Source: Luteitalea sp. (GTDB lineage Bacteria; Acidobacteriota; Vicinamibacteria; Vicinamibacterales; Vicinamibacteraceae). From it: 64,000 nucleotides of DNA. The position numbers were made by a program, and so were the translations under genes. Below are positions 4,917 through 9,755 of this stretch, piece by piece; the first letter of the stretch is position 1, and the number at the start of each line of letters is the position of its first letter. The stretch is taken from contig WHTZ01000008.1 in assembly GCA_009377495.1 (NCBI GenBank), positions 1 through 64,000 of the forward strand, read 5' to 3'. A model generated the notes under the pieces. The model was not told the origin of the DNA. It made no database searches and worked only from the letters and a program-made list of their open reading frames with translations.

Positions 4917-6977
4917 ATGCGATACGTGCGACGATTCGCGGCGATGCTCGCGCTCGTGGCGCTGAGCGCCGGCCCCCAGGCCACGCTCGCCGAGCGCGGG
5001 CGGACCATGGCGAAGGGCCGACCCTTCGTCAATCAGGCCGGCTATAACCTCGGCGAGGCCAAGCGGCTCACTTGTCCCGGTGCGCCCGACGGCACGCCCT
5101 TTCGCATCGTTCGCGTGACGGACAACGCGACGCTGTTTCGCGGCGAGATTCGCGGCTTCGTGGGCGAGTTCACCGCGTTCGATCCGCCCGCGTCGCGCGG
5201 CGACTACGTCGCCGAGGTCGAGGGCTACGGGCGCTCCGTGCCGTTCGCGATCGCGGACCACCTCATGGAGCGGATCTCCTCCCGTCTCGCCTACCAGTTC
5301 TTCATCGATGTGCGCGGCGGCTACACGCCGCTGTTGAGCCCCGCGAACGTGACCGGCGGCGGACCGTCCAGGGACGGCGGAGGGCAGGGCCTCGAAGCGA
5401 CATTCGAGGGGCTGCTCTATGCCTCGAACCCCGCGCTGTTCGATCGCTGGGCCACGGAGCTGGACGTGCGCGGCGAGCGGTGGCTGATGACGGCGGACCT
5501 GCCGCCGCTGGACCCACGCGATCCCATCCTGGAGCTGCATCCGGCCCAAGATGGCAGCGTGCCGCGGGAGCGGATGCCGGACCTGATCAAGCTACTGCTC
5601 TGGCACGCGGAGTTCGCCTACAACAATCACACCTACAACGGTCGCACGGGCGGCCACGAGGCGCGGCCGGAAGGCTACGAAGCCGGGGTCCGGCAGTTCG
5701 GTTATACGGACGATGCGCTTCAAAATTTCGATTATCAGAACTTGCTCGATCAGCTGGCGGCGGCGTGCGCCTACTATCACGCCTTCCTCAAGCCGTACAT
5801 GAGCCGCGCGACCTACGAGAAGTATCGCAAGGTCTGTCTCGAAAAGTGGGAAGCCTACGACCGGCAGAAGGAAGTACGGTACTGGGTGAAGAGCCGCAAG
5901 TGGATTGATGAAGGGCGCCTCGAGTTCAACGAACAGGGCAGCGCGTTCGGCCAGGGCCTGTTGCGCAATCTGCTGATGTATCTTGCGGAGCGCGAAGAGC
6001 CGAACGGCGAGGCGGAACGCTTCCTGCGCTATGCGCGCGCCTGCGCGGAGGACATCATCCGGCACTGGGACTTCAACAATCCGGTGCACACCTGGCGCGC
6101 GCGCAACGCGGAGCACATCACGCCGCAAGCGCTCGCGCTGTTCCTGCTCGCGGCGCCGGAGCAGGCGCCGGCCGGGACCCGGGAGAAGCTGGCCGCCTGG
6201 CGCGAGTACCTGCGCTCGCGCACGGACAACCTGTGGCAGTACCGGACGCACGACGATCACGAGTGGGCGCACCCGAAGAGCAAGGAGGTAGGCACGGTCG
6301 CCGGCATGGGCGGGTCGGCGTTCGCGGTGGCCGCCGTGCTGGACGATCCGGCGCTCCGCGCCATCGCCTGGTCGCAGGTGGACTTCGTCTTTGGCCGGAA
6401 CCCCGCGGGCGCGCACTTGAGCCACAAGAGCCGGCTACGCGTGGCGATGGGCGGCTATTGGCCGGATGTCGAGGTCGGGTGGCCGCACCTCCACGGGCAC
6501 GGCACGGGCGAGCTCGCTGCCGTGCGCGGCACACTGGACGGCTCGCCGACCGACCAGGCGTTTCCGTTCAAGCCGCCTGAAGCCGCGATCGCGGACAGGC
6601 CAGGCGTCTACGGCACCGAGGGCTGGTCGATCACGAATCGGGCGTGGATGTCGACCGTGACGTTTTCGACGCTGGGATCGCACGCCATCCGCATCCTCGA
6701 TCCCGTCAGCGGCGAGGCGCTGCGCACCGTGACGCGCGGCCAGAGGATTCGCGTGGAGCTGCGCGCCGCGTTGAACCTCGATCCGGCGCGCGCGGAGACG
6801 GGGTGGATTGAGGTGACGCAAGGCGGAGCCTCTCGCCGCGTGCTGGTGAGGGAGACGGGGCCGGACACGAGTCGATTCGCGGCCGACGTGACGATCGCGC
6901 CGGACGCGTCAGAGCCATTCCGGGCCGCGTACGGTTATCTCGCGTTTCGCAAGACGGCGGACGTGACCATTCAATGA
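4917..6977 (+). CDS. Secreted glycoside hydrolase family 9-like protein
   Basis: A 686-residue protein with an N-terminal signal peptide (about residues 1-25). The first domain (about 36-115) begins VNQAGYNLGEAKRL, the hallmark of the N-terminal Ig-like (CelD_N) domain of GH9 cellulases. A long alpha-helical region follows, as expected for an (alpha/alpha)6 barrel. Near the C-terminus VFGRNPAGAHLSHKSR and EGWSITNRAWMSTVTF occupy the positions of the GH9 signature regions. A short beta-rich tail follows. The likely role is periplasmic or extracellular breakdown of a beta-glucan or related glycan; the usual catalytic residues could not be aligned by eye. Codon use is very GC-rich and typical of the window. 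Confidence 0.7.
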   Translation: MRYVRRFAAMLALVALSAGPQATLAERGRTMAKGRPFVNQAGYNLGEAKRLTCPGAPDGTPFRIVRVTDNATLFRGEIRGFVGEFTAFDPPASRGDYVAEVEGYGRSVPFAIADHLMERISSRLAYQFFIDVRGGYTPLLSPANVTGGGPSRDGGGQGLEATFEGLLYASNPALFDRWATELDVRGERWLMTADLPPLDPRDPILELHPAQDGSVPRERMPDLIKLLLWHAEFAYNNHTYNGRTGGHEARPEGYEAGVRQFGYTDDALQNFDYQNLLDQLAAACAYYHAFLKPYMSRATYEKYRKVCLEKWEAYDRQKEVRYWVKSRKWIDEGRLEFNEQGSAFGQGLLRNLLMYLAEREEPNGEAERFLRYARACAEDIIRHWDFNNPVHTWRARNAEHITPQALALFLLAAPEQAPAGTREKLAAWREYLRSRTDNLWQYRTHDDHEWAHPKSKEVGTVAGMGGSAFAVAAVLDDPALRAIAWSQVDFVFGRNPAGAHLSHKSRLRVAMGGYWPDVEVGWPHLHGHGTGELAAVRGTLDGSPTDQAFPFKPPEAAIADRPGVYGTEGWSITNRAWMSTVTFSTLGSHAIRILDPVSGEALRTVTRGQRIRVELRAALNLDPARAETGWIEVTQGGASRRVLVRETGPDTSRFAADVTIAPDASEPFRAAYGYLAFRKTADVTIQ

Positions 6978-7025: not shown

Positions 7026-7751
7026 CTACTCGTGCCGGAGGGCGACCAGCGGATCGACTCTCGTCGCGCGGCGGGCGGGCACAAAGGCGGCCAACGTCGC
7101 GACGAGCCCAAAAATCAGCGACACGGCGACGAGCGTCGTCGGGTCGAGCGGCGTGAGGCCGAACAGCATTCCCTCGAGAGAGCGCGTGAGCGCCGCAGAC
7201 GCCGCCAGTCCCAGCGTCATCCCAATCGTGGCCAGTATCGTGCTCTGGCGCAGCACGAGGCCCATCACGTTCGAGCGCTGCGCGCCGAGCGCGATTCGGA
7301 TGCCGATCTCGCGCGTGCGCTGCGTCACGGAGTAGGCGATGATGCCGAAGACACCGCTGGCCGCCAGCGCCACGGCTACGGCGGCGAAGGTGCCGAGGAG
7401 CACGGCGTACACACGAGGACGCGCAATCGTCGTCGCGACCAGCTGTTCCATCGCAGCAACGTTGAACAGCGCCGCCTGTGCGTCGAGCTCGTGGACAATC
7501 CCACGCAGGCTCGAGATGATGGCCGTGGAGTCGCCGTCTGTGCGTACTGTGTAGTAGGCCCCGATGGGAAAGAGGGGACCGCTCCCTGGCCATTGACGCA
7601 AGTCTGCAAAGAACTGCGGCTCAGGCACTCGATTGAGCCCGAACTGGCGAACGTCTTCGACGACGCCCACGATTTCCCACGGCGTCGTGTCCGACCCGAT
7701 GTAGACGAGCTGCCCGGCCGGATTCTCACTCGCGAAATCACGGCGCGCCAG
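7026..7751 (-). pseudogene. C-terminal remnant of an ADOP/MacB-type ABC permease
   Basis: The open frame (214 residues from an internal ATG at 7670) encodes the last part of a MacB/FtsX permease: end of the periplasmic domain, then three membrane helices around SGVFGIIAYSVTQRTREIGI and the terminal PARRATRVDPLVALRHE motif that closes ADOP proteins. Upstream in the same frame the family motif continues (LLARRDFASENPAGQ, then GVVEDVRQF) to about 7751 and stops abruptly, where the frame becomes a ParE toxin in another phase. About three quarters of the usual 800-plus residues are missing, so this is a truncated gene. Confidence 0.8.
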
Positions 7752-7966
7752 TAGATGTAGTAGCGAACCCGTCCGAGGAGCAGCCGCCGCACGCCCTCGA
7801 GCCGAGAATGGGCGACCGGTTCCCCCGCGTCGGGGAGCATAGAAATAAGCTCAAATCCCTGTTCGATCTCGTCCGTGAACGCTTCGGGTGCCTTTGGCCG
7901 GTTTGCAAGCCACCAATCCTGGGCACGGCGGATTTGCTCAGGCGCGATCCGGATCGTGAAGCTTAC
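7742..7966 (-). pseudogene. ParE/RelE-type toxin relic lacking start codon and C-terminus
   Basis: About 75 codons read as a ParE-family toxin: SFTIRIAPEQIRRAQDWWLAN, then PKAPEAFTDEIEQGFELI, and LEGVRRLLLGRVRYYIYWR. The frame has no ATG, GTG, TTG or CTG before the toxin begins. Its first codon position reads GTA, overlapping the antitoxin stop as GTAA, where a functional pair would carry GTGA. At WRA (7742) the toxin sequence ends and permease sequence takes over out of phase, so the C-terminal strand is missing. I infer a dead toxin left beside an intact antitoxin. No annotation by start-codon rules would report it. Confidence 0.75.
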
Positions 7967-8190
7967 CTGGCCTCGCGAGACCGGAGCTCGGCAAGGAGAT
8001 CCGTGCCGCTGATGTATTCGCCACGACGGATCGCGTCCATTGCCGCTAGCAGCTCGCGCTCTTGCTCTCCGGTTAGAGCGATCGGCTCTGCGGGATCGGG
8101 CGCGAGGACGGCGACGTGGGATCCTTCCCCAAGAGCGTCGGCGGGCAGATCAACCTGGCCGTGGACGACCGTACCGGTGATGATCTTCAT
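7963..8190 (-). CDS. Antitoxin of a decayed ParE-type module
   Basis: A 75-residue protein. The N-terminus (MKIITGTVVHGQVDLPADAL) forms a small beta strand pair as in AbrB-like or short antitoxin N-domains. The C-terminus (EQERELLAAMDAIRRGEYISGTDLLAELR) is a helix pair like those that cover ParE toxins. It directly precedes and overlaps the toxin relic. The start at 8190 is chosen because the upstream extension to 8280 lacks similarity. With the partner dead, it may persist as an orphan that could still neutralise related toxins; that is inference. Confidence 0.7.
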   Translation of the reverse strand: MKIITGTVVHGQVDLPADALGEGSHVAVLAPDPAEPIALTGEQERELLAAMDAIRRGEYISGTDLLAELRSREAR

Positions 8191-8310: not shown

Positions 8311-9594
8311 CTACCGGAGCCCCATGCAGTTGGCGTAGTAAGTCACCGGCGCGGCCCAGTCGGAGAAGACGCCGAGAATGCCGACGTCCCTGGCAAGCAC
8401 GTCGAGCACCCTCATCAAGTCGCCCTCGCGTGTGATGGCCGCATCGATGGTCTGGTAGTAGAACCCGTTGTCCCCATCGGCCAGGATGCCCGAGCGCTCC
8501 AGGGTCCAGGTAATGATGTCGAGGCGGGCGCGCCTGGCGTCTCTGGCGTACTGCGACGGCACGATCCGATTGCGCCCGTCGAGGGAAAGTAGCGCAAACG
8601 TGGGTGGCGCGACAATGTTGATGCCCATGGACTTGTAGCTGACCAGCTCGGAGAAGCTCGGGAGCTCAGACACGTCGTTGGCGTCGTCGAGATACACCGC
8701 TTGCCTGCCGAAGGCCGGCTCATGCGTGATCCAGTACAAAACGTCGTCCTGGATGAAGGACTGCGGCCATACATCGTTGGGCGAAATGCCGGCATGCTTG
8801 TACTCGTCAATCATCTTCTGGGCGTAGGCCTCTTGCGTGAACCCGTTGAACGGCATGGCTACGCTTGGCGCCTTGAGCTCCGGCGTCATCTTTAGACCCA
8901 GCCTCTTGAACAGCGCGATGCTTTCCTTGTGACTCAGGAGGTGGCCGCTCGTAGGACCAGCGTACACATCCGTGCGAACGCTCGGCGTGCCGCCAACGAA
9001 TTGCTCTGGAGTTTGGGCGGCAGGGTTGAAGGCGTCCATCTTGCCGGTTAGCGTCTTGAACTCGGCCAGCGTGAGGTCGCTGGTACGGCACTCTGCCGTG
9101 GCAGGCGTGAGGATGCTGCCATCGGGCCCGAGCACGGCGGGCGTAAACGGCGTCGTGCACTTGCTCGCCAGGGGCGTGACCAGAATGTTCGTGGTGGTGT
9201 GCAGATCGCTCTGCGAGTGCCGGCACACGAGCTCCAGGTCCTGGGTGAAGGTTACGTCGCACTCGAGGATGCCCGCGCCCATGCGCGCGGCCGCTTCGTA
9301 GGACTCGCGTGCGTGCTCCGGGAACTGCAGCGCCGCCCCGCGGTGGCCGATCGAGAAGTCGGTCTTCTCGAACCGCCCGGCGGAGCAGCCCTGGAGCCTG
9401 CGCTTGAGCCAACTGTCTTCCATGTCGTTGACGAGGAAGAACGGGCGCGGGCCGAGCTGCACGCGATCTCCGCGGCGCTCCTCCCGATGCTTGTGATTGG
9501 GATGCCAACCGGCGTCCTGAGCGATGTCTTCCAGTGCAAGTCCGGACGCGCCGAAGGTTGCGATGAGGCAGAGAACGATGACGTGCTGGCGCAT
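8311..9594 (-). CDS. glpQ: Secreted glycerophosphodiester phosphodiesterase
   Basis: A 427-residue protein with an N-terminal signal peptide (about residues 1-21). The GDPD TIM-barrel catalytic set is visible: [13 protein letters not shown] (His84), [19 protein letters not shown] (Glu111, Asp113, His126), then TPELKAPS and a C-terminal VFSDWAAPV. It hydrolyses glycerophosphodiesters from phospholipids to glycerol 3-phosphate and an alcohol, probably in the periplasm. At about 430 residues it is longer than cytoplasmic UgpQ and closer to the large periplasmic/plant-type enzymes; an insertion between 130 and 215 accounts for this. GAGGGGG lies upstream of the ATG. It is a single gene. Confidence 0.85.
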
Positions 9595-9755
9595 GGATGC
9601 CCCCTCTCAGAGTTCCGATGCCAAAGATGGCCGCGTCTGAGTGAAACCAAGGGGATGGTATTGCGCCCTCGTGGCAAACCTGTGACGAGGTGGTGTCGCT
9701 CGGATCACATCTTTCCGAAGCCCCACGTTCTGAAAAGGGGTTTCTCAGCACCCTG

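Follow-up and report, generated by a model that had tools for sequence, protein, structure and literature searches.

We found that a type II toxin-antitoxin operon on the minus strand of a Luteitalea sp. contig has very probably decayed, leaving a dead toxin gene next to a surviving antitoxin frame. The locus lies in the window, by which we mean the whole stretch of 64,000 nucleotides that was analysed (GenBank assembly GCA_009377495.1, contig WHTZ01000008.1, positions 1 to 64,000). Gene order and reading-frame register are those of a type II toxin-antitoxin locus, and at the place where this family has an NTGA overlap between the two genes the window reads GTAA. The antitoxin frame is intact and the toxin frame disrupted, which is the arrangement of an orphan antitoxin beside a toxin pseudogene.

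The antitoxin gene (7963..8190, minus strand) has an intact frame of 75 codons, running from an ATG at 8190 to a TAA at 7965-7963. Its homologues adjoin the same ParE-type toxins in relatives, and the family was seen in many Acidobacteriota genomes. The window protein matched none of the families in Pfam and NCBIfam, and 17 aligned members of the antitoxin family gave scattered chance-level matches only when compared to the same two collections. A structure model of the antitoxin (pLDDT 87, pTM 0.44) had no match among PDB folds below E 1.7, a search of a plasmid collection with the antitoxin gave no match, and a scan for promoters and terminators found nothing at the antitoxin.

The toxin relic (7751..7966, minus strand) consists of 72 codons with homology to ParE-type toxins, lacking both a usual start and the C-terminal strands. 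Its frame overlaps the end of the antitoxin with a shift of one base, is in register with its relatives from the GTA of GTAA, and belongs to an open frame spanning 8149-7376 on the minus strand. From the upstream in-frame stop until an internal ATG at codon 43 (7840), this frame holds no ATG, GTG or TTG. The best match was a toxin from genome G413 (61% identity, E 4.2e-27), and a toxin on JAJCXR010000045, from an Acidobacteriota metagenome-assembled genome (JAJCXR below), matched at 60% over 60 residues. Matches at E up to 0.001 were present in 28 of the 198 genomes searched as relatives and matches at E up to 1e-9 in 13 of 396 genomes of the phylum, with the window's own genome counted in both. 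The Pfam family ParE_toxin (PF05016) matched the window toxin at E 5.8e-4 with 20.8 bits, compared to a family cut-off of 23 bits, and at E up to 1 it matched all 16 rows of the toxin alignment (best 5.4e-11). Judged by these sequence comparisons, the toxin homology is far above chance. A sequence search of the PDB with the toxin produced one match (E 0.014), which we judged to be due to chance. The structure model of the G413 toxin (pLDDT 94.7, pTM 0.86) matched ParE and RelE toxins in the PDB, the top match being ParE2 of PaaA2-ParE2 (5cw7, E 6.4e-6, TM 0.76-0.80). No stop interrupts the 72 codons of the window toxin and the invariant residues of the alignment are kept, suggesting that decay of the toxin is recent or partial.

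We then compared the overlap between the two genes with that of homologous pairs. There are 39 complete pairs among the matches listed, of which 35 overlap by the four bases NTGA; GTAA occurs at none of them, and the remaining four are spaced otherwise, with antitoxin stops TAA, TAG, TAG and TGA and an ATG or GTG start further on. In an NTGA overlap the toxin would take its start from the antitoxin stop, by translational coupling. In the window, a G at 7966 precedes the antitoxin stop, giving GTAA (7963..7966, minus strand). The two nearest relatives, at about 60% identity, are in exact register with the window at this point: JAJCXR has GTGAGCTTTCG (GTGA) and G413 has CTGAGGTACAG (CTGA) where the window has GTAAGCTTCACG (GTAA). 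Because NTGA is the rule in the family, GTAA at the exact place of the overlap is most readily explained by loss of an NTG start, a reading well supported by the homologues. The homologues stand at about 60% identity or less and come without an orthologous locus, so the ancestral base is one that we infer from them; the overlap was probably NTGA, and probably GTGA in particular, before it changed to GTAA. TAA or TAG antitoxin stops are found beside 3 of 18 broken or missing toxins versus 3 of 39 complete toxins (Fisher p=0.37), and these counts give no support to the idea that a TAA stop generally marks a dead toxin. A distant toxin-less antitoxin (L132, on G121:C58) likewise ends in GTAA.

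An orthologous locus was sought in a congener, G001, and none was found, nor any toxin match in that genome. G001 does have the neighbouring GDPD gene (85% identity), and its DNA similarity to the window covers 8312-9700 only, stopping at the end of the GDPD gene, with other genes beyond. The antitoxin of G001 is located elsewhere (G001:C24), and a short remnant, about ten toxin-like codons long, follows it. Elsewhere in the neighbourhood, window positions 4917-6977 encode a protein of 686 amino acids that has only sub-threshold matches to glycosyl hydrolase family 9; a search of six relatives, belonging to the same genus and family, did not find it.

Beyond the start, the toxin frame carries two further lesions. 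A gap of three codons (about 7937..7945, minus strand) falls near the N-terminus of the toxin, at the start of the first helix; the window row is alone in this among the 16 of the alignment, the codons being present in 15 of 15 aligned homologues, and the distance from the overlap codon to a conserved WW is three residues shorter in the window than in G413. At the other end, toxin homology stops at codons 72-74, where homology to an ADOP-type permease begins in another frame. The end points of the deletion that this junction (7745..7754, minus strand) would mark are our estimate. The window toxin breaks off at its counterpart of Y75 in the G413 toxin, a residue that lies inside the first of two strands in the G413 model (72-79 and 84-92), and the second strand, with a conserved W and R, is gone. 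The complete ParE fold, composed of an N-terminal strand, two helices and a three-stranded C-terminal sheet, is present in the G413 model and incomplete in the window frame. The toxin of JAJCXR is itself broken, by a frame change and an in-frame stop, next to an intact antitoxin frame.

The permease on the far side of the junction is likewise a remnant. It is the C-terminal fragment of an ADOP-type duplicated permease (7026..7751, minus strand) whose frame is open and whose first two thirds are missing, covering positions 568-803 of the 803 in TIGR03434; upstream of the toxin the reading frames encode the antitoxin rather than the remainder of the permease. Possible permease homology upstream of the junction (GRPFS... 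versus GRAFT...) was rejected, as the score, at 244 bits, was no higher than for a match starting at the junction itself and the stretch is covered by the toxin frame. The genome of the window (G000, 6.5 Mb) has 437 ADOP permease candidates; 150 of the 437 were scored, and all 150 matched.

An earlier note on this DNA had placed at 7742-8190 a toxin frame that has no start codon, overlaps an antitoxin ending in GTAA, and loses its own last strand where it meets permease sequence in a different frame. These observations are borne out, the coordinates being correct to a few bases; the three-codon gap had been missed. Its further proposal, that the start was lost by a change from GTGA to GTAA, gains from the prevalence of NTGA and the absence of GTAA among complete pairs and is limited by an ancestral base that is drawn from near relatives reading both GTGA and CTGA. 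It had also described the toxin as inactivated with the antitoxin retained; the relic and the intact antitoxin frame agree with this, although retention, as read here from the DNA, is the presence of an open frame.

We propose that the ancestral pair would have had an NTGA overlap, probably GTGA, with the antitoxin stop supplying the toxin start. A change from GTGA to GTAA would have exchanged one antitoxin stop for another (TGA to TAA), with no effect on the antitoxin protein, and would have removed the start of the toxin. A separate deletion, reaching from inside the toxin to inside the downstream permease gene, would have cost the toxin its C-terminal strands, where the conserved W and R lie, and the permease its front part; one deletion across both genes may thus be why both are incomplete. 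Either lesion, the start change or the deletion, should abolish a working toxin. The antitoxin would survive because loss of the toxin first is harmless and loss of the antitoxin first is not. With at least two other lesions present, it would go too far to name the loss of the start as the cause of the decay or as its first step.

In a variant of this history with another order of events, for which the chances seem about even, the toxin would have been killed by the deletion into the permease to begin with, and neutral drift would later have altered the three codons and the base in the overlap. This would agree with the antitoxins that lack a complete toxin, 15 of 18 of which (among the matches listed) still end in TGA, suggesting that toxin loss in this family usually comes about by lesions other than a start change; it would also agree with two other toxin-less antitoxins that have TAA stops (GTAA in L132 and TTAA in L100). 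However, apart from the lost start, the gap of three codons and the junction, the remaining toxin codons have no nonsense or frameshift change, and there is little sign of long drift.

Decay of the operon, with the antitoxin as survivor, was then set against the wider family, surveyed in sets of 57 antitoxins and 49 toxins drawn from the matches listed, with at most 30 loci from each search, unique by DNA sequence and selected by model coverage, and so a non-random sample. Loci L048-L071, which came from the permease and GDPD searches, were excluded from the scans, partial antitoxin matches (e.g. L102, L103, L110, L114, L128 and L133) stand outside the 57, and one locus, L152, carries two hits. 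The number of complete toxins depends on the cut-off: 46 with a model end of 94 or more and a score of 40 or more, 48 with an end of 91 or more, and 49 with a score of 15 or more. Of the 57 complete antitoxins among the matches listed, 39 lie beside a complete toxin and 18 do not; among these 18, eight lie beside a damaged toxin (the window included) and ten have no adjoining toxin hit, although in some of the ten (L043/L090, L073 and L109) a short toxin-like remnant still follows the antitoxin stop. The 49 complete toxins among the matches listed divide into 39 with a complete antitoxin, seven with a partial match to the antitoxin model and three with no model match, and at these last three, open frames of 55, 55 and 141 codons end at the toxin start. 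Not one of the 49 lacks at least a candidate upstream frame. Decay is one-sided in the sampled toxin-antitoxin family, which fits the expected constraint and will be no surprise to a specialist. At L102 (G352:C23), the leading part of an antitoxin continues directly into the second half of a toxin, which looks like a fusion of the two genes by a deletion.

The recurrence of antitoxins without a complete toxin (18 of 57 among the matches listed) would also fit an antitoxin kept for a function of its own, e.g. regulation or, as anti-addiction, the neutralising of related toxins. PMC7354431 and PMC7192599 put forward roles of this kind, and the genome of the window contains a complete related pair (G000:C14), whose overlap is GTGA. 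However, the two pairs share only 40% identity in the toxin and 46% in the antitoxin, making cross-talk uncertain, and we regard a function of this kind, which is compatible with decay of the toxin, as rather unlikely. The window antitoxin may now drift, or may neutralise related toxins. Another member of the antitoxin family without a toxin of its own lies at G000:C15:4825-5034 (L046); after it come a small gene, apparently a distinct one, that resembles an antitoxin, and a weak match to ParE.

Usual start codons were counted in the 46 complete toxins, with 14 damaged or partial toxins set aside. Among the matches listed, 43 of the 46 have an ATG, GTG or TTG near the start and three do not. 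All three are complete toxins of the ParE type. In two of them (G413:C289, L075/L092; G548:C240, L137) a CTG is the sole candidate, as part of the CTGA that the toxin shares with the antitoxin stop; the third (G420:C34, L085) reads GTAG there, has a CTG three codons further downstream and belongs with another antitoxin type. CTG is a rare start codon in bacteria. Non-canonical initiation is therefore possible in this family, and since 3 of 46 complete toxins do without a usual start, its absence alone is no proof of toxin death. The earlier note had treated the absent start as a sign of a dead toxin; the absence holds as far as codon 43, and its weight is less than was assumed.

The two toxins with CTG only in CTGA and the one with GTAG leave room for the idea that a ribosome ending the antitoxin could re-initiate on any overlap triplet, so that CTG, and weakly even GTA, could start the toxin. 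If this were true, changes in the overlap triplet would adjust toxin dose step by step before the toxin gene dies. We consider it very unlikely. Continued translation of the window toxin itself, by coupled re-initiation at a near-cognate codon (GTA, or an ATC a few codons on), with the toxin fused to an out-of-frame tail, is likewise very improbable on our assessment: complete toxins without a usual start exist, CTG standing in the overlap of two, and the window toxin frame is open to 7376, but no complete pair among the matches listed has GTAA, and a product whose C-terminal strands are gone is unlikely to fold as ParE. It is very unlikely that the locus is in truth intact and that an error of sequencing or assembly created its GTAA or its junction, for although the genome is a draft of 97 contigs at 90.7% completeness, three separate changes would be required, the junction lies inside a 142-kb contig, and the loss of two thirds of the permease is in step with truncation of the toxin.

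Decay of the toxin beside an open antitoxin frame thus remains our preferred reading, and it places the locus in the known class of degraded type II toxin-antitoxin loci with orphan antitoxins. The window toxin resembles the ParE/RelE superfamily of type II toxins (PF05016; PaaA2-ParE2 and chromosomal ParDE) in its sequence match and, through G413, in fold, and the antitoxin-toxin order and the four-base overlap in the window's relatives are those of type II ParE/RelE systems. Unlike these toxins, it is without a usual start, three codons and the last strands, and the antitoxin family, unlike those of ParE/RelE systems, has no Pfam or NCBIfam match and no confident PDB fold match. Decay of the same polarity is described in PMC7354431 for Caulobacter crescentus, in which a parE pseudogene leaves ParD without a mate, and Shigella flexneri, in which the YacB toxin is broken by a frameshift; there, as in the window, the antitoxin is kept and the toxin inactivated. 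Those cases are other systems, whereas in the window the damage extends to the stop/start overlap and the toxin is joined to a piece of a permease. In Klebsiella, orphan antitoxins are reported in 2253 occurrences, and that report discusses degrading toxin-antitoxin pairs as one source (PMC7192599); these too are antitoxin genes without a working partner, and compared to them the window toxin has remains that can still be read base by base. The locus represents gene decay of an ordinary kind that is unusually legible here, and a clear example of how, in an NTGA overlap, a change from TGA to TAA would leave the antitoxin unaltered and deprive the toxin of its start.
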